A stretch of 53,647 nucleotides of DNA, taken from the IMG/VR virus record IMGVR_UViG_3300010354_000120, positions 1 through 53,647 of that record; one strand, written 5' to 3'. Position 1 is the first letter of the stretch. Each line of letters begins with the position of its first letter. Below the pieces are notes generated by a model, which saw only the letters and a program-made list of their open reading frames with translations, was not told the DNA's origin and did no database searches. Source of the stretch: a virus. The position numbers and the translations under genes are program-made. This document shows, in pieces, positions 29,509 through 43,362 of this stretch.

Positions 29509-32500
29509 ATGGGTCTCTCCAGATTAGATAATTTTCTGAAATCAACTACTGGCACAATCCTATACGTTGATCCTAGCAGCTTGGATTCTAGCGATAGTGT
29601 TGACAATCAGGGTAATTCCCTAACCAGACCTTTTAAGACAATTCAAAGGGCTCTAATTGAAGCCGCAAGATTTTCTTATCAGAGAGGTGTAAATAACGAT
29701 AGATTTTCAAAAACCACCGTTCTGGTGTTTCCGGGTGTTCATACGATTGACAATCGCCCAGGTTATTTTCCAGATGGTTCCACATTCAAAACCAGAATAG
29801 GAACTACCGTAACTGATCTTTATGAATGGGATCTAGTTACTTCATTTGCTATTAATAGTAGCAATAATGCTCTCTATAAAATGAATAGTTTTTATGGGGG
29901 CGTTATTGTTCCACGTGGAACATCTATTATTGGTTTAGATGAGAAGAAGACTATAATTAGACCAAAATATGTTCCAAATCCAGAAAATGCTAATGTTGAA
30001 AGATCCGCAATTTTCCGTTTAACCGGATCATCTCACATTTCGAATATAACTATTCTTGATGCAGACCCACAAGGAAGTGCTTATCTTGATTATACATCAA
30101 ATTCCGCAATTCCTAATTTTTCTCATCACAAACTATGTGCATTTGAATATGTTGATGGCGTTAATACTATTAACATTTCAGATAATTTCTTAACATATAA
30201 AACAAGTAGAACCGATCTTGATGGATATTATCAAAAACTATCCATCGTTTATGGAAACAGTAGTCAGAGGTCTATTAGCCCAGATTATCCATCCACGGTT
30301 GACATTGAAGCAATTGTTGATGAATACAAAATTATTGGTTCTCTTGGATCTACATATAGTATCGATGACATTTATGCTGGAGATGGTGTAACGCCAACGA
30401 CTGAGATTACAGTCGTTACTAAAGCATCATTTGATGATATCGCAATTGATACTTTAATTGAAATTAGTGGAATTAATGTTTCTGGATATGATGGACAATA
30501 TGTTGTCACTGCGGTTGTAAACTCAACAACATTTAAATATACCGCAAGTAATGCTCCCATCAATGCGGCACCATCTGTAGCAGAAATTGGAAGCGCAACA
30601 GCAAATGTTTCGGTAGATTCCACAGTTACAACATCTCCGGAAATTCATAATTGCGCGTTCCGATCATCCTATGGGATGAGTGCCATCTGTGCTGATGGAG
30701 AAGTTATAAACGGATTTAAGTCAATTGAAGTTCATAATTGTAATGCAATCTCTCTTCAAAATGATGATAATGCATTCATCATTTATAATGCAACAAATGG
30801 AACATATAATGACATAACAGGATCAATCAAAAATCTACATTCAAATATTAATTCAAAATACAAACCGGATTATGTCAATTTCTTTGCTAACGCAAAGAAT
30901 GATGCAGAAATTTCCATAACAAATAGTAGAGTTATTGGATATGCACAACAATTTTTATCAGAATCTGGATCCGACATTTCTCTCATTAATGTTGCGTCAA
31001 AATTTGGAGCTAGGTCATTAGTTTCCAAAGGATATAGAAGTGAAGCGTATTCAAGAAATGATCTTGGATATGTATCACACGTGATCGCCCCCAAAGAGGA
31101 AACTGCTTCTCCTGTATCAATTAAATTTGATAGTCTAGATAAATCCAAGATTGTTTCCATCGGGATTACTAGTAGATTATATCTTGCTCAACAAACATCA
31201 CAATCATATCCACCAGCACACATAGTTGATGGATATAGATTGGGTGCAAAAGAAAATGATACTTTGTATGTAAATCTATCAGATCCTAGTGGGATTACCA
31301 CAACATATTCGGCAAGAATCGTGATGCCGAATACTCAAGGATCTGGTGCGGAAATTTCATCCAAAAAGTCGTTTATTGTATCCAGAACTGGAACTGGTAA
31401 TGTAATCTCAAGCAATACCATTACTCTTACAACCAATCACACATTACTTGATGGCGAAAAAATTAGACTTATTGGGGTGACTGGAGAAATTCCCGATGGA
31501 TTGGAGAGTGATAGAATTTATTATGCAATTGTTTCTGGAGTATCCGCAAATCAACTTAAAGTTGCAAAAACTTTAGACGATGCTCTTACCGGAACCGATA
31601 TTGTAATTAATAATAAAGGTGGACTATTATTAGTTGAAAGTAGAGTATCAGATAAACAAAGTGGTGATATTGGACATCCAATTCAATGGGACAGTACAAA
31701 TAATCAATGGTATGTAAATGTTTCCGCAGCATCCACAGAAAATAGAATTTATTCTGCTATCGGAAACTTTGGATCAAATCAAACATCATATAGTTATGTA
31801 ACTAGAGATCCGGATCAAAGATCTGAAGTTGACACAATATATCAAATTCGTTATATAATTCCCAAGGAATCTTTGAACGCATCTCCTCCATCTCGCGATT
31901 TTGTTGTTCAGGAATCAAACACTTCAATTGGATCAACTTCGGAAATGAGCGTTCAGTGGAACGCATCAAATTCATCAGCACTTACAAATTCCACCGACCT
32001 AAGAAATACCCGCGTCATTTCTAATGCATCCTGGTCCACTAATGTTGCAACTATCGTCACTGAACTTCCACATAACCTAACATTGGGATCAAAGGTTCAG
32101 ATAATAAATGTAACAAGTACCAATAATACAGTTGGATCAGCAACCTCTGGATTTAATGGAAATTATACCGTAGCAAGCATTGGCAATGCCAAGCAATTTA
32201 GCTATGCTCTGGCAGAAAATCCTGGAGTATATACAAATAATAATTCCGTCAGAAACGCACAATTACCATATTATAAGAGAACTGATTTTAGCTTAACGCA
32301 TAAAATTTATGAGATTGAAACAATTCAAGAGTATGAAAGTGGAGTTAAGGATGGAATTTATCACATAACTATTGTAAATTCTAGCGTATCTCCAACTGAT
32401 AATTATTTTTCCGCAGAAAAATTCTCTCAGGATACAACTTACCTATATCCACTAATTGATCGTGATAATAGGAATTCCGATCCAACATCAACTGTGTCAT

Positions 32501-35500
32501 TTGCAGAATCTAATAATATCGGTCGAGTTGTTGTAAATGATTCAAAATACAGTTTAACTAAAGAATCAGTATCTAAATCCCTATATGATACCAATTTGGG
32601 AGTAGGAATTACTGAATTCAAATCATCTCCAACTGGATTGGCACATACTGTATATACAACAATTGATCATAGATTAAATGGTGTTTCAAATCTGAGTATT
32701 GTTTCTCCCGGAGCAAATTATACTGATGGTGAATATTATAATGTTCCACTATCTGCGATTGGATCGTCTATAACAGGAAATCATGCTACGGCCAGACTGA
32801 CAGTGGCTTCCGGATCCATAAGTTCAATTAGAATTATGGATAATGGCAGTGCCTATGGCATTGGAAATACTCTTAGAATTACTTCTGGAATTACTACTGC
32901 TGTTGGATGGACATCGGCAAATTATCCAGTAGTTCGTGTTGAGGGAATTGAGAATGCTGTTGGAGAAACTTTAATCATTTCCGGGATCTCAAGCATCACA
33001 ACAAATCATCTCAATAATCTATATAAAATCACTGGCATTAGTGCTGGAAATACGAAGCAAATTGAGGTTCAAGCATCTACTGCTTTAATATCACCACTCT
33101 CAACCGGAATTGGAAACGTAGTAACTGCCACTGCACAGGCATTTGTTGCAGGAAAGGTGGTTGGCATTTCAACAATAAATTATGATTATACAACCGGCAT
33201 TGCAACTGTTGGATTTAATACAGCACATGGATATAAAGTTGGAACCAAAATTAGATTTGGTGGCGCAAGTTCTAGTTTCTACAATAAAGATGTAATCGTA
33301 ACAGATGTTGTAGGATTAACCACAGCAAAAGTATCTCTTGGAATTGGAACAAATTATCCGATTGTTGGTGGAACCATTGAATCATATGCACACTTATTAT
33401 CATCATATGGTGGAGGAATTAAGTATGATGTAGAAGCTACTAGTGGTAGATTAGTTGTTTCTTATGCTGGATTAACAACTTGTATATTAGCACCAATACT
33501 CTCAACGGATAATACGGAAAGCGGTGGTATTACAGTATCGGGAGCTGTTAATTGTGGACTGAGAATTGGTGATTACTTCTTAATTGATTCTGAAATATTC
33601 AGAGTAAAGCAGGTTGTAACAAGCAATACTGTGATGGCATTTAGAGGACTGTTGGGCACTAGTGCGGCTAGTCATTCGGCAAGTTCTGTTCTGAGAAGAA
33701 TTACCCCAATTCCAATTGAATTGCGCAAGAGTTCTTTAATCCGGGCAGCTGGACATTACTTTGAACACGTTGGTTTCGGTCCAGGAAACTATTCCACAGG
33801 TAAATTTGATTATCAATCAAGACAATTGAATGGTGAAGAATTGCTAAATGCATATAGCATTGATGGTAATGGAGGAACCACACTATTCTCAGGAACAAAT
33901 CAAGATGGTGATGTATTTGTTGGTGGATCAAAAATTGATGCATCAACAGGTGAAGTTCAAAAAGTAAGAGTTCCTGTTCAAATTACCAGTGCGTCTCAAC
34001 TCAAAAAGAATTCTAAAGATATTGGATATTCTGTAGACAACTTTGATAGAATTTCAATTGATGAGGGACTATCAGTAAGTGGAGGTGTAGACAAAGACTC
34101 GCTCTCTAAATTTGATGGTCCAGTTATTTTCAATAGCAGAGTTGCATCAAAATCTCCACTTGGACTTGAAGTAAAATCACTTTATATTCAAGGAGAGGCA
34201 TCTACCCCAAGAAAACTCACTGTTGGAATTGCAACTCCAACTACTCCAGGAAGCATTGGTGATATTGTTTGGACTCAAAACCCAACAGTTGACCAATATC
34301 TTGGATGGATTTATACAACTGGACATGTTTGGGAGAAGTATGGTTATATTGGGGTAAACCCGGCAGATGTTAAGGGTGTTGGTGTCTCAAGTAACGGAAC
34401 ATATATTGGATTTACAACCAATCTCAATATTGTTGGAAATGGCGTGTCAATTACTGCACGCGGAAGCGTTTCTGGAGTAACGACACTTTCTATTGATGCA
34501 ACTTCAAGAGTCGCAATTTCAACTGCGAATAATGTCTTCGCCGGTATTGCCACTCAGATCAACTTTGTTGGTGCTGGTGTTACAATTTCTGCTACTGTTT
34601 CCGCAGGTATTGCAACAATTAACTTTAGAGCAACTGAGGCTGGAGGAGCACCAGTTGCGCCTTCAGGAACTCCAAATGCTATTGCTGCATATGATGTTGC
34701 TGGAAATCTTTCCCAAGTTACAGCATTTACATATTTTAGCAATATTCTAGATCTAACTGGCAGTACAGCAACTTCATTGTTCAAAATAAATCAAGGTGCT
34801 AATGGAAACACTCTTGATCTGGTTAATTCCGGTAGTGGAAAGATTCTTCAAGCAGGATCTTCTGCAAGTGATGTTGCACCAATTGTATTCACGACTTCTA
34901 AGCATATTGGTATTGGAACAAATACCCCAGATTCTGGTTTAGACTTGAGATATAGAACTGGAAGTGGAAATGCTATAACAGTTCGCACAACGCATACTGG
35001 TGCCACCAATGACATCAAGATGCAGATGGATAATAATGGTAGATTGGGAATACTTACCTCTGCCACATATGCAGCGACTCATACTCTTGGGTTGGATGTA
35101 AACGGACTTGTTGGAGTGACAAGTGCGATAAGATTCTCAACTGTTGATAGAACACAGAGAATCACTCTACAAGCTCCAAGCACGGTTGTTGGAACGGCAT
35201 ACACATTATCTCTTCCAACTCAGGTTGGCGGCGCAAATAGTATACTCTATACATCATCTTCCGGAATTCTTGGTTGGATTACGCCGAATAACATTTTGGC
35301 AAACTCCAGCACATCTTCACTTCCAGAAGGATCTAACCTATATTACACAGATGAAAGAGCGCAAGATGCGACAGGATCTGCAATCAATACTGGTATTCAA
35401 ACCGGTATTACTGTGGTTTATGATGATGCAAATAATCGCATCAACTTCAACGTCATTAGTGGAACATTCCCATATTCAACCAGAGGATTTATGATTCAAA

Positions 35501-35508
35501 TTGGGTGA
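29509..35508 (+). CDS. Giant beta-helix virion/fibre protein (1999 aa)
   Basis: 1999 aa, the largest gene here. N-terminus MGLSRLDNFLKSTTGTILYV, then NSLTRPFKTIQRALIEAARFSYQRG and FPGVHTIDNRPG, a conserved cyanophage start that leads into a pectate-lyase-like right-handed beta-helix (SHISNITILDAD; later ISLINVASKFG). The middle has Ig-like strand-rich repeats. The C-terminal 500 residues are fibre-like, with IGIGTNTPDSGLDLRY and the phage-fibre motif SLPEGSNLYYTDERAQD. Likely a long tail fibre or large baseplate-attached adhesin. Late promoter 32 bases upstream. Confidence 0.75.
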   Translation: MGLSRLDNFLKSTTGTILYVDPSSLDSSDSVDNQGNSLTRPFKTIQRALIEAARFSYQRGVNNDRFSKTTVLVFPGVHTIDNRPGYFPDGSTFKTRIGTTVTDLYEWDLVTSFAINSSNNALYKMNSFYGGVIVPRGTSIIGLDEKKTIIRPKYVPNPENANVERSAIFRLTGSSHISNITILDADPQGSAYLDYTSNSAIPNFSHHKLCAFEYVDGVNTINISDNFLTYKTSRTDLDGYYQKLSIVYGNSSQRSISPDYPSTVDIEAIVDEYKIIGSLGSTYSIDDIYAGDGVTPTTEITVVTKASFDDIAIDTLIEISGINVSGYDGQYVVTAVVNSTTFKYTASNAPINAAPSVAEIGSATANVSVDSTVTTSPEIHNCAFRSSYGMSAICADGEVINGFKSIEVHNCNAISLQNDDNAFIIYNATNGTYNDITGSIKNLHSNINSKYKPDYVNFFANAKNDAEISITNSRVIGYAQQFLSESGSDISLINVASKFGARSLVSKGYRSEAYSRNDLGYVSHVIAPKEETASPVSIKFDSLDKSKIVSIGITSRLYLAQQTSQSYPPAHIVDGYRLGAKENDTLYVNLSDPSGITTTYSARIVMPNTQGSGAEISSKKSFIVSRTGTGNVISSNTITLTTNHTLLDGEKIRLIGVTGEIPDGLESDRIYYAIVSGVSANQLKVAKTLDDALTGTDIVINNKGGLLLVESRVSDKQSGDIGHPIQWDSTNNQWYVNVSAASTENRIYSAIGNFGSNQTSYSYVTRDPDQRSEVDTIYQIRYIIPKESLNASPPSRDFVVQESNTSIGSTSEMSVQWNASNSSALTNSTDLRNTRVISNASWSTNVATIVTELPHNLTLGSKVQIINVTSTNNTVGSATSGFNGNYTVASIGNAKQFSYALAENPGVYTNNNSVRNAQLPYYKRTDFSLTHKIYEIETIQEYESGVKDGIYHITIVNSSVSPTDNYFSAEKFSQDTTYLYPLIDRDNRNSDPTSTVSFAESNNIGRVVVNDSKYSLTKESVSKSLYDTNLGVGITEFKSSPTGLAHTVYTTIDHRLNGVSNLSIVSPGANYTDGEYYNVPLSAIGSSITGNHATARLTVASGSISSIRIMDNGSAYGIGNTLRITSGITTAVGWTSANYPVVRVEGIENAVGETLIISGISSITTNHLNNLYKITGISAGNTKQIEVQASTALISPLSTGIGNVVTATAQAFVAGKVVGISTINYDYTTGIATVGFNTAHGYKVGTKIRFGGASSSFYNKDVIVTDVVGLTTAKVSLGIGTNYPIVGGTIESYAHLLSSYGGGIKYDVEATSGRLVVSYAGLTTCILAPILSTDNTESGGITVSGAVNCGLRIGDYFLIDSEIFRVKQVVTSNTVMAFRGLLGTSAASHSASSVLRRITPIPIELRKSSLIRAAGHYFEHVGFGPGNYSTGKFDYQSRQLNGEELLNAYSIDGNGGTTLFSGTNQDGDVFVGGSKIDASTGEVQKVRVPVQITSASQLKKNSKDIGYSVDNFDRISIDEGLSVSGGVDKDSLSKFDGPVIFNSRVASKSPLGLEVKSLYIQGEASTPRKLTVGIATPTTPGSIGDIVWTQNPTVDQYLGWIYTTGHVWEKYGYIGVNPADVKGVGVSSNGTYIGFTTNLNIVGNGVSITARGSVSGVTTLSIDATSRVAISTANNVFAGIATQINFVGAGVTISATVSAGIATINFRATEAGGAPVAPSGTPNAIAAYDVAGNLSQVTAFTYFSNILDLTGSTATSLFKINQGANGNTLDLVNSGSGKILQAGSSASDVAPIVFTTSKHIGIGTNTPDSGLDLRYRTGSGNAITVRTTHTGATNDIKMQMDNNGRLGILTSATYAATHTLGLDVNGLVGVTSAIRFSTVDRTQRITLQAPSTVVGTAYTLSLPTQVGGANSILYTSSSGILGWITPNNILANSSTSSLPEGSNLYYTDERAQDATGSAINTGIQTGITVVYDDANNRINFNVISGTFPYSTRGFMIQIG

Positions 35509-35511
35509 TAC

Positions 35512-35533
35512 ATAGACCCCTTCGGGGGTCTAT
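35512..35533. terminator. Stem-loop between convergent genes
   Basis: ATAGACCCC (35512-35520), TTCG loop, GGGGTCTAT (35525-35533). A very stable C(UUCG)G-type hairpin on the plus strand; it lies between the 1999-aa gene and the antisense cassette and includes the stop of the latter. No long U-run on either side, so it may act as an RNA end stabiliser as much as a terminator. Confidence 0.55.
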
Positions 35534-35934
35534 TCCGTAATAGCCATCACCGAATAAATTCCACAGGTCATATCAAAAATTTCACCAGATTTCAAATAAA
35601 TTTCTAATGGATATGCCATTGTTGTAGATAGTCCTGCATAACTATCTGCTCCATGAAATCCTCTGGTGACTCTATAACTTTCATAATTTCCGCCCAAAAA
35701 CACTTGATTGGAATCATCATTTGTTATATAAACTCTTGATAGACCTCTTCCTATTCCGCTCATATCAACACTTGACACCTGATTATAATTTACTGAGTTT
35801 CCCCAGCGAAGGGTCAAAGTTCCAGAGCTTGCTTTTGCAAAATCTATTAATAATCTAGTATTTGTTGTTGCAGTAAAAAGAGCAGATCCACCTACAGTAG
35901 AAGATTGACCATTTAAAATAGTAACGTTTGCCAT
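35530..35934 (-). CDS. Small virion-like protein, paralogue 1 (134 aa)
   Basis: 134 aa. Pattern: MANVTILNGQSS..GSALFTATTNTRLLI, TLTLRWGNSV, VDMSGIGRGLSRVYI, then a C-terminal block AYPLEIYLKSGEIFDMTCGIYSVMAI. All-beta, no membrane segment. Third of a minus-strand tandem; about 120 bases of its 3' half differ at one base from paralogue 2, while its centre differs strongly. Placed between two fibre genes, so an adhesin or fibre-associated subunit is inferred. Confidence 0.7.
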   Translation of the reverse strand: MANVTILNGQSSTVGGSALFTATTNTRLLIDFAKASSGTLTLRWGNSVNYNQVSSVDMSGIGRGLSRVYITNDDSNQVFLGGNYESYRVTRGFHGADSYAGLSTTMAYPLEIYLKSGEIFDMTCGIYSVMAITE

Positions 35935-35944
35935 AATTAGATAA

Positions 35945-36340
35945 TTACTCCGAAACTGCCATCACCGAATAAATTCCACAGGTCATATCAAAAATTTCAC
36001 CAGATTTCAAATAAATTTCTAATGGATATGCCATTGTTGTAGATAGTCCTGCATAGCTATCTGCTCCATGAAATCCTTTAGTGACTCTATAACTTTCATA
36101 TGCCCCGCTTCCGGCGGTGTCAGCATCAGAAATATAGACTCTGGCCAAATTTCTTCCGATGGAATTCATATCAACACTTGACACCTGATTATAATTTACT
36201 GAGTTTCCCCAGCGAAGGGTCAAAGTTCCAGAGCTTGCTTTTGCAAAACTAATCAATAATCTTGTATTTGAAGAGGCGGTAAAAAGAGCAGATCCACCTA
36301 CAGTAGAAGATTGACCATTTAAAATAGTAACGTTTGCCAT
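35945..36340 (-). CDS. Small virion-like protein, paralogue 2 (131 aa)
   Basis: 131 aa, same build as paralogue 1: nearly identical N-terminal and C-terminal parts, but a different centre (RVYISDADTAGSGAYES against the other copy's RVYITNDDSNQVFLGGNYES). It starts 11 bases before paralogue 1 in transcription order, with the same leader (GATTATCTAATT before the ATG). The mosaic of identity and divergence looks like duplication with gene conversion or selection on a surface loop. Confidence 0.7.
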   Translation of the reverse strand: MANVTILNGQSSTVGGSALFTASSNTRLLISFAKASSGTLTLRWGNSVNYNQVSSVDMNSIGRNLARVYISDADTAGSGAYESYRVTKGFHGADSYAGLSTTMAYPLEIYLKSGEIFDMTCGIYSVMAVSE

Positions 36341-36350
36341 AATTAGATAA

Positions 36351-36764
36351 TCATCCTTGTTCTGGGAGTGCTATACAGTTATATGGGCCACATAAAGCAT
36401 AGAATTGATGCCCAGTATCTAACAATAATTCCACCGGAAGAGGTTCGATATAAGTATCTTCTGCAGTAGATTCTTGGTTATTTGTAGGGACAAAGTTTTC
36501 CAGCCAAACATTATGAGATGAAGTTCCAATATCATCAACATCATAATGAACTTGGTATGCAATATTACTGCCAAATGCTCTACATAGAGTTGTTGATTGA
36601 CTGAGAAGAGATGCTGACGGTCCCCAGAATAGACTAACTTGACCCGCCTGGGCCCCAGTTCTAACCCCCTCCATATAAAGAATGACTATCCTAGTAGGAG
36701 AAGGAGCAGTATATAAAAGTGTTGAACCGTTTGATGATTGACCGGATATGATAGTCGTAGCCAT
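36351..36764 (-). CDS. Small virion-like protein, paralogue 3 (137 aa)
   Basis: 137 aa, first of the minus-strand cassette. More distant relative of the other two: MATTIISGQSSNGSTLLYTAPSPTRIVI, then VSLFWGPS, and PLPVELLLDTGHQFYALCGPYNCIALPE aligned with their C-terminal block. A perfect late promoter (TATAAATA, minus strand) lies 31 bases upstream, so these are late, probably virion genes. Confidence 0.7.
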   Translation of the reverse strand: MATTIISGQSSNGSTLLYTAPSPTRIVILYMEGVRTGAQAGQVSLFWGPSASLLSQSTTLCRAFGSNIAYQVHYDVDDIGTSSHNVWLENFVPTNNQESTAEDTYIEPLPVELLLDTGHQFYALCGPYNCIALPEQG

Positions 36765-36794: not shown

Positions 36795-36802
36795 TATTTA
36801 TA
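36795..36802 (-). promoter_or_regulatory. Late promoter, perfect TATAAATA (minus strand)
   Basis: The plus strand reads TATTTATA; the minus strand gives TATAAATA exactly, 31 bases before the start of the antisense cassette. Five bases separate it from the plus-strand late box. Confidence 0.75.
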
Positions 36803-36807
36803 TCATT

Positions 36808-36815
36808 TATAAATA
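36808..36815 (+). promoter_or_regulatory. Late promoter, perfect TATAAATA (plus strand)
   Basis: TATAAATA exactly, 31 bases before the start of the 1100-aa fibre gene at 36846. Together with 36795-36802 it forms a back-to-back late promoter pair. Confidence 0.75.
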
Positions 36816-36845: not shown

Positions 36846-39800
36846 ATGACCGCAATCAACAAGAACTTCATTGTAAAGAATGGTCTACAAGTCGGAAACG
36901 ATTTGATTGTGGCCAATGCAGATAATAATAGGGTTGGAATTGCATCAACAATACCAACAAGCACATTCTCTGTGGGTGGGCAAATTGCAGCAGATCAAGT
37001 AGTTGTTAGTGGAGTTTCCACACTCACTCAACTAAAAGGAACTCAAGCAAGTTATACACAGGTTGATGCAGCAACGTTGTATGCAGCATCCGGAATCGTA
37101 ACTGCTTTGACTGGATCAAATATCAACATTTCCGGAGAAGTCAAATCCAATAGATTTGCAGTTGGAACCGGCGGATCGATTTTTAGCGTTACTAGTGCTG
37201 GTGTTGGCGTAGGAACAACCGTACCAACACAGGAGTTTGAAGTTGTTGGAGATGCAAACGTTACAGGTGCACTCTCAGCACTCGTTGTCAATAGTAACGT
37301 AAAATCAACAGGTGTTAGTACATTTGCAAGAGCAGATGTCACCAATCTTCAGGCAACTGATGTCAACATCATTGGCATAAGCACCCTAGGTTTCGCCAAT
37401 GCAACGAAATTAACAGTATCTTCCAACACAACGTTGGGTATTACCACAGTTACTGGATCTTTAGACGCATCTCAAATTAACGTTACAGGTATTACTACTA
37501 TTGGTAATGTTAATGTAAATCAGATTAATGCAACCGGTTTCTCAACATTTTCATATATTGGAGTTGCCAATTCAGTTGCAATCGGAACAGATAGATATAC
37601 TTCTGCACTTTCGATTGGAAACATAAGTGAAATAGTTAGTTTGAGAGGTGGACTATCCGTTAAGACCCTTCCAAACAGCAGTACAGTTGGCGAAGCGGCG
37701 ATTTACATTGAAGAGCAAAGTGGCAATGAAGGTTGGTACATGCTTGTTGACGTTGATGGGGATCTAAACTTCAACAACTCATCATCCGCCACTCACTCCG
37801 TTGAATTTCAAGATAATGACGATGTTGTAATTAGAAAAGGTCATCTTGGAATTTTAACCACAACGGCTCAAGATGCGTTGACTGTTATTGGAAATGCAAG
37901 AATTACTGGTGTTACTACCTTAACAACAACTACAACATCGGCATTAAATGCATCACAACTTAATGTTTCCGGTGTTTCTACATTTGCTGGAATCACTACA
38001 GTTACTGGATCTACATTATTCTCCAAGCAACTTAATGTATCTGGAGTTTCGACCTTTGTTGATGCGACCACACATCAAAAAGGAATTAGCGTAACTGGTG
38101 TTGCTAATGTAACCGGCGTAAATGCCACTGGTGTTATTACAGCAACATCATTTAGTGGAAATGCTACTAGTGCGACTTATGCCTCTAATGCTGGAGTAGC
38201 AACCTATGCATCCACAGCAGGAGTCTCTACTAGTGTTAGTGGTGGTCCAGGAAGTCTGACTCAACTTAATGTCACCGGGGTTTCCACTTTAGGAGTCACT
38301 GAAGCATCTCAACTTAACGTATCCGGAGTCTCAACCTTTGCTGGCATCACTACGGTCACTGGATCCACATTATTTTCTAAGCAACTATGGGTTTCTGGTG
38401 TAACCACAGTAACAGACTTAAAGGCAACTCAGACCACTATTACTGGAGTCTCAACTTTAGGTGTTACTGGAGTATCACAACTTAATGTTTCTGGTGTAAC
38501 CACAGTAACTGACCTTAAAGCGACTCAAACAACCATTACCGGATTCTCAACTTTAGGTGTAACAACAGCAACCGTATTATCCACAAATACCCTGAGAGTT
38601 GCTGGCATTTCAACATATGTAACTGGACCAATTTTAGTGGGATCAGCAACTTCCACTGGCACTGCAGATCAGAAGTTGCAAGTAACTGGAAAGGCATATG
38701 TATCAAGTTCCGTTGGAATCGGATCAACAAATCCAACAGAGGCATTGGATGTTGTTGGAAATATCAAGGTTCGTGGAACCGTAATCGGAGATGGATTTAG
38801 TGGACCCGGTATTATTACAAGTATTATTGATGGTGCCGGAAGTGATGCCGTATTAGTTTCTCCTGGTGTTTATAAAATCGACCTTTATGGATCTGCAATC
38901 GGTGAAGCATGGGGAACGGTTCAAAATGGTTCAGGGGAAATTGGTGTTAGAACTGACGTTCTTGTTGGCATGGGAACAACTGTTCCTCCCGAATACACAC
39001 TTGACGTTTATGCAAAGTATGCAGAAGAGGCGGCAAGATTCCTTGTTCAAGGTAGCAACGTTTATGCTCCATTCATTGTCAACTCAAACGTTCAGGTCAA
39101 TAACCTAAACGCACAATATCATGGAGGAAAGTCGGCGCCGGGTGGATCAATTGTTGGTACGACGGACGAGCAAACACTTACCAATAAAACACTTACGGTT
39201 CCAGTGATTACTGGATTGGGTGCAACTTTCAATGGTGCAACTAGCGGAAGTGTAACTCTTAAGGCAACGGCAACTGCCGGCACTAATACAATCACTCTTC
39301 CAGCAACAACTGGAAACGTTGTTACTACTGGAGATAGTGGAACAGTCACCAGCACAATGATTGCTAATGACACAATTACAAATACCGATGTTAATTCTGC
39401 TGCAGGAATAGTTTACAGTAAACTGAATTTGTCTGGTGGCATTGTCAATGCTGACATTAACGCATCTGCAGCAATTGCCATTTCCAAACTTGCATCATCA
39501 ACAATTTCTGGTATATCACTAGGAAGCAACTTAAACAACCTGACAATTGGAGCATATCTCACTCAAAACGGTCAAACATATAATGGATCCACAGCAAGAA
39601 CGGTAGAAGTTGATGCAGCCTCAGTCAATACTGCATCAAAAGTTGTGGTTAGAGATGGTTCCGGAAACTTTGCTGCTGGTATTGTAACAGTAACCACACT
39701 ATCAGCAACCAATGAAAACGTTTCTGGTATTTCAACTCTTGGTAATCTCAAAACCCTACCACTATTAGAAAAGGTAAATGTTGTTGCAGGAACTGCAAAT

Positions 39801-40148
39801 GGAACCTCAAACATCGACGTTCTTACATCTAATGTTTGGATGTTTACAACTGCAGCAACTGCCAACTGGACACACAATATTCGCGGAAATGCTTCAATAT
39901 CTCTGAATACTTTGATGGCAACCGGTGATTCAATCGTTGTCACTATTTTGGCCAAATGTGGAGTTGGTAAGTCATATTCAACAGACATTACCATAGATGG
40001 AGGTGCGCAAACAGAAATGTGGGCAGGTGGAACGGCACCAACAGCAGGTTTATCAACTGCAAATTATGACATGTATACTTGGACGATTGTAAAAACCGCA
40101 TCTGCAACATTCAGTGTTTTCCCGGCACAATCTCAGTTCGGAGCGTGA
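36846..40148 (+). CDS. Repeat-rich tail fibre protein (1100 aa)
   Basis: 1100 aa. Start MTAINKNFIVKNGLQVGNDLIVANADNNRVGI, a conserved cyanophage fibre N-terminus. Many short beta repeats of the form QLNVSGVSTFAGITTVTGST and VSGVTTVTDLKATQTTITG; one 26-residue unit occurs twice with identical protein but different codons. Contains the EEQxGxEGWY...DGDLNFNN module shared with the 606-aa fibre. Late in the sequence: LTNKTLTVPVITG and ANDTITNTDVNSAAGI, common phage fibre motifs. Probably a long tail fibre; the repeats form the shaft. Confidence 0.75.
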   Translation: MTAINKNFIVKNGLQVGNDLIVANADNNRVGIASTIPTSTFSVGGQIAADQVVVSGVSTLTQLKGTQASYTQVDAATLYAASGIVTALTGSNINISGEVKSNRFAVGTGGSIFSVTSAGVGVGTTVPTQEFEVVGDANVTGALSALVVNSNVKSTGVSTFARADVTNLQATDVNIIGISTLGFANATKLTVSSNTTLGITTVTGSLDASQINVTGITTIGNVNVNQINATGFSTFSYIGVANSVAIGTDRYTSALSIGNISEIVSLRGGLSVKTLPNSSTVGEAAIYIEEQSGNEGWYMLVDVDGDLNFNNSSSATHSVEFQDNDDVVIRKGHLGILTTTAQDALTVIGNARITGVTTLTTTTTSALNASQLNVSGVSTFAGITTVTGSTLFSKQLNVSGVSTFVDATTHQKGISVTGVANVTGVNATGVITATSFSGNATSATYASNAGVATYASTAGVSTSVSGGPGSLTQLNVTGVSTLGVTEASQLNVSGVSTFAGITTVTGSTLFSKQLWVSGVTTVTDLKATQTTITGVSTLGVTGVSQLNVSGVTTVTDLKATQTTITGFSTLGVTTATVLSTNTLRVAGISTYVTGPILVGSATSTGTADQKLQVTGKAYVSSSVGIGSTNPTEALDVVGNIKVRGTVIGDGFSGPGIITSIIDGAGSDAVLVSPGVYKIDLYGSAIGEAWGTVQNGSGEIGVRTDVLVGMGTTVPPEYTLDVYAKYAEEAARFLVQGSNVYAPFIVNSNVQVNNLNAQYHGGKSAPGGSIVGTTDEQTLTNKTLTVPVITGLGATFNGATSGSVTLKATATAGTNTITLPATTGNVVTTGDSGTVTSTMIANDTITNTDVNSAAGIVYSKLNLSGGIVNADINASAAIAISKLASSTISGISLGSNLNNLTIGAYLTQNGQTYNGSTARTVEVDAASVNTASKVVVRDGSGNFAAGIVTVTTLSATNENVSGISTLGNLKTLPLLEKVNVVAGTANGTSNIDVLTSNVWMFTTAATANWTHNIRGNASISLNTLMATGDSIVVTILAKCGVGKSYSTDITIDGGAQTEMWAGGTAPTAGLSTANYDMYTWTIVKTASATFSVFPAQSQFGA
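37956..38387 (+). repeat. Duplicated fibre repeat with synonymous recoding
   Basis: Copies at 37956-38033 and 38310-38387 encode the same 26 residues (from QLNVSGVSTF to LFSKQL), yet 13 of 26 codons differ, all silently. A further pair from about 38391 and 38491 (VSGVTTVTDLKATQTTITG) shows the same trend after an identical start. Confidence 0.85.
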
Positions 40149-41553: not shown

Positions 41554-42105
41554 ATGAAGAAGAAAGTTGCTATTTTTGGATCCGCAAGAACTTCACCAGA
41601 CTCTGGACTCTATCAGTCGGTGGAGAGAATGGCAAAGAATCTATCTGAAAAGGGATGGATTATTGTGACTGGCGGTGGACCAGGAACGATGGAAGCAGCA
41701 AATAAAGGTGCGATGAGTGTATGTGGAGATACAGAAGTCTGTTCTCTTGCACATGCAATCTATCTTCCTTTTGAGGAAGCAATTAATGAATATGTTCAAG
41801 AGCACACAAAGCATGACGATTTCTTTACACGTCTGAAGACATTTTCTGAGTGTGATGCCTTTATCGTAACGCCAGGAGGAATTGGAACTCTTCTGGAGAT
41901 GGCATTAGTCTATCAGTTAATTCAGGTTTCTCACTTAGAAAGAAAGCCTGTCATTTGTGTAGGAAGAATGTGGAGATCATTCAGACATTGGTTGGAAGAT
42001 TATATGCTGGATAATCACTTTTTGAATGAGAATGAGATGAAGATGATTCACTATGTGGATCGATTTAGTGAAGCAGTTCATATCCTAGAGGGATACGACA
42101 TTTGA
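41554..42105 (+). CDS. LOG-family nucleotide 5'-monophosphate phosphoribohydrolase
   Basis: 183 aa, the usual length of LOG proteins. GGGPGTMEAANKGA at residues 40-53 and the signature TPGGIGTLLE at 106-115, with Arg93 at the place of the catalytic Arg (RLKTF before DAFI). Family members split cytokinin riboside 5'-phosphates or, in the PpnN type, other NMPs into base and ribose 5-phosphate. A PRPP synthetase follows 300 bases on, so the ribose 5-phosphate could feed PRPP. Formerly annotated lysine decarboxylase; there is no support for that activity. Confidence 0.82.
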   Translation: MKKKVAIFGSARTSPDSGLYQSVERMAKNLSEKGWIIVTGGGPGTMEAANKGAMSVCGDTEVCSLAHAIYLPFEEAINEYVQEHTKHDDFFTRLKTFSECDAFIVTPGGIGTLLEMALVYQLIQVSHLERKPVICVGRMWRSFRHWLEDYMLDNHFLNENEMKMIHYVDRFSEAVHILEGYDI

Positions 42106-42351: not shown

Positions 42352-42405
42352 GTCCACGGTGTGCGATCCCATGATGCGTTTTTGTCAAACTACAACGGAG
42401 TGACT

Positions 42406-43362
42406 ATGAAGTATGATAAGTTTCGCCTCATTGCTGGCACAGCAAATGAACAACTTTCGCATGAAATTGCTGAGTATCTGAATGTTGAACTGACCGATAG
42501 AACAATCAAATCATTTGCAGATGGCGAAACTTATGGGCAAGTAAATGCAGCAGTAAGAGGTTGCAACGTGTTCATTGTGCAACCAACATGTGCTCCAACA
42601 AATGACCATTTGATGGAGATTTTGATCTTGATTGATGCTTGTCGCCGTGCATCAGCAAAGGAAATTACCGCAGTCATTCCCTACTTTGGATATGCGCGAT
42701 CGGATAGAAAGGCGGCAGGAAGAGAGAGTATTACTGCAAAGTTGGTGGCAAATCTTCTTACTTCCGCAGGAGCAGATCGGGTTCTTTCAATGGATCTTCA
42801 CTCCGCACAAATTCAAGGATATTTTGATATTCCATGCGACAATACTTACGGTGCTCCGAGCATGGCAAAGTATCTTCGAACAAAGTATGCAGATGAATTG
42901 GACGATGTAGTGGTAGTTTCTCCTGATGTTGGGGGAGTTGCAAGAGCAAGATCTTTTGGTAAGTTGTTAAACAATGCACCACTTGCAATTGTAGATAAGA
43001 GGCGAACTGCGCATAATGTTGCAGAAAGTCTGACAGTAATTGGTGATGTAGAGAATAAGATTGCCATTCTTGTGGATGACATGATTGACACTGGTGGGAC
43101 TATTTCCGGAGCAGCAAAATTACTCAAGCAGAAAGGTGCAAGAAAAGTATTGGCATGTGCTACACACGGAGTATTATCCTATCCAGCAGTTGAAAGAATC
43201 TCTGAACCAGGAGTATTCGAAGAGGTTGTGATTACAAATACCATTCCAGTTCCTCCAGAGAAGAACTTTTCGCATCTACAAGTTCTGTCCATTTCAAATG
43301 TAATGGGAGAGGCAATCTCCCGAATTCATGAAGAAGTTTCTATGAGCAGTATGTTCCAATGA
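42406..43362 (+). CDS. prs: Ribose-phosphate pyrophosphokinase (PRPP synthetase)
   Basis: 318 aa, full length for class I. Start ATG 42406 (GGAG upstream) rather than the frame's earlier GTG. Visible: IPYFGYARSDRK (94-102, ATP site region), MDLHSAQIQGYFD (129-141, metal/ribose site), LVDDMIDTGGTI (222-233, PRPP-binding loop). Makes PRPP from ribose 5-phosphate and ATP for nucleotide synthesis. Known from some cyanophages. Its pairing with the upstream LOG-family gene suggests a salvage route. The stop overlaps the next start (ATGA). Confidence 0.95.
   Translation: MKYDKFRLIAGTANEQLSHEIAEYLNVELTDRTIKSFADGETYGQVNAAVRGCNVFIVQPTCAPTNDHLMEILILIDACRRASAKEITAVIPYFGYARSDRKAAGRESITAKLVANLLTSAGADRVLSMDLHSAQIQGYFDIPCDNTYGAPSMAKYLRTKYADELDDVVVVSPDVGGVARARSFGKLLNNAPLAIVDKRRTAHNVAESLTVIGDVENKIAILVDDMIDTGGTISGAAKLLKQKGARKVLACATHGVLSYPAVERISEPGVFEEVVITNTIPVPPEKNFSHLQVLSISNVMGEAISRIHEEVSMSSMFQ

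Follow-up and report, generated by a model that had tools for sequence, protein, structure and literature searches.

The locus analysed here raises the question of what three small antisense genes, lying between two tail fibre genes of a marine phage, might encode, and how two of them came to be nearly identical in some blocks and strongly diverged in their centres. The window, i.e., the whole stretch of DNA that was analysed, is an entire IMG/VR record, a linear fragment of 53,647 bases encoding a tail tube, a baseplate hub, a tail lysozyme, a single-strand DNA-binding protein, and a giant fibre, and its source is a T4-like marine myovirus of the kind infecting ocean cyanobacteria. The giant tail fibre gene (29509-35508, plus strand, 1999 aa; phrog_529 tail fibre, E 0), whose product is the proposed client of the cassette proteins, yielded 458 phage records, and its relatives belong almost entirely to Synechococcus and Prochlorococcus phages. 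On the other side, the second fibre gene (36846-40148, plus strand, 1100 aa; C-terminal phrog_5906 match, E 1.2e-35) is divergent from the cassette, and it is the corresponding neighbour in two IMG/VR contigs, L004 and L005. Two further genes were observed near the fibre cluster, namely a DprA-like recombination-mediator gene (41554-42105) and a ribose-phosphate pyrophosphokinase-like gene (42361-43362), the latter with a weaker nicotinamide phosphoribosyltransferase match.

A sequence-only reading had described the cassette as three minus-strand genes of 134, 131, and 137 aa with the same start and end blocks, and all three proved to be complete ORFs in that place. Copy 1 (35530-35934, minus strand, 134 aa) matches the family HMM and, like copy 2 (35945-36340, minus strand, 131 aa), with which it shares 86% identity, was assigned to type A, while the promoter-proximal copy 3 (36351-36764, minus strand, 137 aa) represents type B, which is single-copy in each of three close genomes. 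The common blocks were recovered in the DNA of copies 1 and 2; in copy 3, they appear as a protein-level pattern and not at the DNA level. Copy 3 shows about 28-30% amino acid identity to the other two, with a whole-protein match of E 1.2e-6 and a probability of 97% in a profile-profile comparison, and by these comparisons it is a distant paralogue of both. The stop codons of copy 1 and the giant fibre gene are 21 nt apart on opposite strands.

The mosaic of copies 1 and 2 was also as that reading had reported. Between 35543-35661 and 35958-36076, a single base out of 119 is different (35641, A/G), further identity brings the exact tracts to 98, 21, 20, 83, and 73 nt, and the centre after the RVYI motif differs by many replacements and a 3-codon indel. 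Altogether, 36 codons differ between the two genes. All but three of them fall in codons 59-83, in a shorter second block of divergence at codons 21-31, or among the last four codons. Read on the minus strand, the homogenised C-terminal frame block of copy 1 (35543-35685) matches 35958-36100 of copy 2 in the exact tracts of 98, 21, and 20 nt with short mismatches between them. The variable central segments (35686-35759 in copy 1, with dense silent and replacement changes and the indel, and 36101-36165 in copy 2) lie between exact tracts. The homogenised middle frame block (35760-35842) is an 83-nt exact tract equal to 36166-36248, and the homogenised N-terminal frame block together with the upstream spacer (35873-35945) is a 73-nt exact tract equal to 36279-36351.

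The placement of silent differences was compared with random placement among codons for the same residue in every type-A pair. Each of the five pairs from a single genome showed clustered silent differences (p 0.0002-0.0102), and none of the 16 between-genome pairs did (lowest p 0.051); combining one pair per genome gave p of about 1e-6. In the window pair, silent divergence was 0.00, 0.00, and 0.05 in the frame blocks against 0.57 for the variable block. The frame blocks reach 0.37-0.95 when genomes are compared with one another, so silent-site constraint cannot account for their identity within a genome, whereas the central block shows about 0.5-0.84 within genomes, close to the between-genome level. 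In the tree of the frame partition, type-A copies cluster by genome; in that of the variable partition, the copies of L004 and L005 do not, with grouping by genome not rejected (p-AU about 0.24). Gene conversion, one of the two processes suggested earlier, is thus borne out by frame-block silent sites that are homogenised within each of three genomes and strongly diverged between them. A gene-conversion (concerted evolution) array is a well-supported description of the type-A genes, and the pattern fits old copies whose frames would have been homogenised repeatedly in each lineage. The other suggestion, selection on a binding loop, found no such backing: the variable block of the window pair has a pN/pS of about 0.4 (0.23/0.57) without a positive-selection signal, and since this value is below 1, the block may be relaxed or diverse and receptor-driven selection is unsupported.

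A survey of relatives placed the cassette in a conserved position with 1 to 4 copies. Contig L004 carries B+A+A in antisense between the equivalent two fibre genes, L005 (154 kb) carries B+A+A+A in the equivalent antisense slot, both with variable centres, and in the single-cell marine virus AG-345-E08 a lone, distant member lies in this slot on the same strand. A scan for additional relatives with the start of the second fibre gene retrieved the L005 contig alone. The cassette has its own late promoter, as previously proposed: a minus-strand T4-type TATAAATA (36795-36802), 30 nt upstream of the copy-3 start and kept in L004, L005, and L013, stands back to back with a TATAAATA on the plus strand (36808-36815) for the downstream fibre gene. 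The motif occurs 5 times in the window against 3.3 expected, which is near chance; the paired arrangement is kept in all four genomes (the window, L004, L005, and AG-345-E08). The cyanomyovirus late motif has been given as NATAAATA (PMC2984593). Where the cassette and the giant fibre gene converge, the window has a GC hairpin (35512-35533; z-scores of -2.4 on the minus and -2.9 on the plus strand) that recurs at the corresponding position in L004 and L005 and is likely a terminator shared by both transcription units. The cassette-less phages O18, P-TIM68, S-SM2, and Bellamy have in this slot a gene of about 560-850 codons on the sense strand, whose product could be an alternative tip. This slot gene was observed to be glycine-rich near its end where read.

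These observations bear on two other accounts of the array. It is improbable that the copies reflect recent duplication and neutral drift in a dispensable array, with relaxed centres and with frames alike through recency. Such a history would agree with pN/pS below 1 everywhere and with a copy number ranging from 1 to 4, but a central silent divergence of about 0.5-0.84 beside blocks at or near 0 means that one recent duplication is insufficient; the pattern is repeated in three genomes, the ORFs are intact, and both the promoters and the synteny have been retained. A diversity-generating retroelement or DNA inversion as the source of variation, to which constant blocks flanking a variable block and an antisense cassette between fibre genes might point, was rejected as very improbable: the differences between copies 1 and 2 involve every type of base, silent sites, and indels instead of adenine-directed substitutions, no inverted repeats of at least 20 nt surround the cassette, and a single orientation is found in four genomes.

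Concerning the wider family, a profile built from the 14 proteins first collected found PSSM2_025 (YP_214257.1, T4-GC 22) of the cultured phage P-SSM2 (E 4.4e-17), and AG-345-F15 proteins also belong to the family by profile search (E 3.2e-34); both sets of relatives are annotated as hypothetical. Types A and B align end to end with the F15/E08 group in a profile comparison (probability 98%, E 1.6e-13), and the 14-protein alignment has invariant G8, T19, R25, G48, G65, P110, Y128, and E135 (copy-3 numbering). Used as a query, PSSM2_025 returned 11 IMG/VR loci and L063. Cassette proteins and PSSM2_025-type proteins have in common the match to the profile and an adjoining fibre that carries the C-terminal tag, and together they are, on this evidence, best called a new family. 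The cassette proteins had no significant match in the family libraries Pfam, PHROG, and NCBIfam and none among PDB sequences, with profiles and single proteins as queries. Phage records gave zero matches to the cassette region in a nucleotide search and nothing beyond chance matches to type A or B in a protein search, and none were found in genome contigs scanned with type A. The family profile likewise found no member in P-TIM68, S-SM2, Bellamy, SynMITS9220M01, S-PM2, Syn9, S-SSM7, P-SSM7, S-CAM22, S-SRM01, or S-CAM7. A literature search for P-SSM2 virion data on PSSM2_025 retrieved none. As a separate observation, L063 is contig QCAW01000019.1 of the Pelagibacteraceae single-cell genome AG-345-F21, filed as a SAR11 cell, and carries a fibre cluster of the P-SSM2/F15 type that includes three family members and may derive from a co-sorted or infecting phage.

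The relatives point to the fibre C-terminus as the probable site of action. At P-SSM2-type loci, members are situated on the sense strand and, wherever the upstream gene could be read, about 20-30 nt 3' of a fibre gene, with the next fibre gene directly after, and the upstream fibres end in a common peptide of the type F-x-T-x-x-W-N-I/M-P (e.g., FQTKNWNMPF, FTTKYWNIPLS, FESKWHIPF, and FQTGDWHMPL). This tag ends 14 of the 15 ORFs upstream of members and none of the 85 other ORFs at the same loci; the lone untagged upstream ORF is explained by an intervening 53-codon fibre ORF, which itself ends in WNIPL. At L063, examined afterwards, all three upstream fibres carry the tag, and a memberless fibre ends in YYFSGSWRVA. 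The giant fibre of the window ends in FPYSTRGFMIQIG (35467-35505, plus strand), a proposed docking tag that resembles those of P-SSM2-type fibres, and the giant fibres of L004 and L005 have similar ends, FPYTTRGFMIPIN and FPYATRGFNIPIG, respectively. Of the 554 ORFs at all loci, 17 matched a tag regex that covers both forms, among them the window, L004, and L005 giant fibres, and each of the 17 adjoins a member; these counts are not fully independent because the regex was composed after the examples were known and the upstream fibres share local homology. The giant fibre of AG-345-E08 ends in YPFTTKGFPGSFA (FTTKGFPGSFA), outside the regex. An IMG/VR-wide DNA pattern for NWNMPF followed by a stop was in frame in four cases, each with a member about 24 nt behind; two other matches (L058 and L062) were off-frame and discarded.

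The tag is absent from the giant fibres of cassette-less phages. Those of O18, E15, P-TIM68, S-SM2, SynMITS9220M01, and Bellamy, 42-45% identical to that of the window from residue 1 to about 1626-1816, end in a GQNF-type module, while the giant fibres of P-SSM2 and F15 presumably end in an S74-like tail. The last several hundred residues of giant fibres (33000-35508 in the window) were observed to take at least three unlike forms among cyanophages, the first ~1650 residues being 42-45% identical. A fibre of L049 and L050, closely related to the tagged F15/L051 fibres (about 87% identity in the penultimate segment), terminates in a different domain, and no member follows it. Members can also be exchanged between slots, as the sequence-only reading anticipated when it called the proteins exchangeable: in relatives, one member is found in different fibre slots. 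The slot-1 member of L050 has 92% identity to the slot-2 member of L049 and 32% to the L049 slot-1 member, and the slot-1 flanking fibres of these two loci are 87-88% identical. Slot swapping with near-identical flanking fibre genes was seen for L049/L050, L047/L048, and L051/L017.

Structure prediction and mapping of the variable part, both proposed from the outset, gave AlphaFold2 models with confident ends and a weak variable part (mean pLDDT about 68). For copy 1, the beta core has a pLDDT of about 70-90, with low confidence at residues 63-71 and 84-106; this low-confidence centre (about residues 63-106) lies over the variable block and is compatible with a predicted loop region. Beta strands are predicted for the C-terminus, at E119-133 of copy 1 and at E120-124 and E127-134 of copy 3. 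Foldseek searches against the PDB gave only weak cupin or jelly-roll matches, none with E <0.001. Against BFVD, they listed small unnamed marine phage proteins, one of them with E <0.001 (3.6e-4, TM about 0.45), a model-based hint of a common beta domain and nothing more. An S-TIM5 virion protein from the BFVD list was set aside, as the family profile has no match among the proteins of S-TIM5 or S-SCSM1.

Taken as a whole, we consider it fairly probable that the cassette encodes late-expressed, exchangeable proteins that bind the C-terminal peptide of the giant fibre and form a receptor-contacting tip; the shared peptide on adjoining fibres lends backing to the earlier suggestion of adhesins or fibre caps. 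The cassette would be expressed late to give small, mostly beta-structured accessory proteins, which would enter the virion by docking on the peptide at the very C-terminus of the neighbouring giant fibre as an exchangeable tip. Conserved frame segments would serve the fold and the fibre docking, and the variable centre would be the receptor contact surface. The frames of the tandem type-A genes would be homogenised by gene conversion or unequal recombination; because the centres stay different, each copy would present another tip surface, and the shared frames would supply homology for swapping centres.

The main rival to this tip reading casts the products as fibre-specific folding chaperones comparable to Tfa or T4 gp38 that would grip the fibre C-terminus during assembly and might be released afterwards. 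Small proteins encoded at the 3' end of a fibre gene, with a C-terminal peptide common to their clients, are what one would expect of it, a released chaperone would likewise bind the fibre C-terminus, and known chaperones have variable client-binding domains, such as the N-terminal beta-sandwich of Pam3 gp25 (PMC9608196). We nevertheless regard it as rather unlikely, since there were zero Tfa or chaperone family matches, the predicted structure is almost all-beta and lacks a C-terminal helical trimerisation domain, and neither tandem paralogues with one hypervariable centre nor swapping between unlike fibres with the same tag is required of a chaperone. If the products were instead small proteins that decorate the virion or belong to the stalk, with no part in host recognition, this would suit the late promoter and the weak fold likeness to small marine phage virion proteins in BFVD (E 3.6e-4); a tag at the distal fibre C-terminus and a hypervariable centre favour a tip over a stalk, and we find this account quite improbable.

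Extending the tip reading, we tentatively suggest, with some doubt, a plug-and-socket system in marine T4-like phages, in which fibre ends would carry either a built-in tip domain or a socket peptide for separate tips, and some phages would keep a conversion-maintained array of 3-4 alternative tips per giant fibre. If so, a single genome could vary the receptor specificity of its fibres or virions and would need neither inversion nor a retroelement to do so. A 2010 review regarded T4-type tail fibres as lacking in cyanomyoviruses and proposed that structural proteins of unknown function may substitute for them (PMC2984593). Few host-recognition proteins of marine cyanomyoviruses have been identified, and the cassette family offers a concrete, fast-evolving candidate with a recognisable fibre partner, a probable docking peptide, and a member in cultured P-SSM2, as well as a case of lytic-phage diversification through gene conversion between tandem copies.

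When compared to known systems, the cassette comes closest to the gp38 of T2/S16-type phages, long-tail-fibre tip adhesins in which a conserved frame carries hypervariable segments (PMC12892980, PMC10844046). Both are small separate proteins encoded beside a distal fibre gene, in both a conserved framework alternates with hypervariable segments exchanged by recombination, and both show modular exchange and a seat, proposed for the cassette proteins, at the fibre C-terminal end. In contrast to gp38, the cassette proteins are about half the size, have no sequence match to it, and have a core predicted as all-beta instead of a poly-glycine II sandwich; the window members are without repeated glycine-rich motifs, although some F15 members have one Gly-rich run, and the cassette consists of tandem antisense copies beside a fibre with a short C-terminal peptide. 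The best reading of this comparison is that the cassette proteins would be gp38-like in role and not homologous. Tfa and Pam3 gp25 are likewise small partners encoded beside the fibre, with a C-terminal action (proposed here) and a variable client-binding part; the cassette differs in its lack of a family match, its predicted beta C-terminus in place of helical trimerisation, its tandem conversion array, and its slot swapping. In the invertible S/U system of phage Mu, one locus also offers alternative fibre-end proteins, whereas the cassette has one orientation in four genomes, no inversion repeats, and changes by conversion and recombination between direct copies. PSSM2_025 and the AG-345-F15 proteins belong to the same family, with the same fibre neighbourhood and a C-terminal tag on the upstream fibre, but are encoded on the sense strand, one per fibre slot, where the cassette is a tandem antisense array. 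The cassette is thus best called a system of the separate-tip kind, built from a new family.
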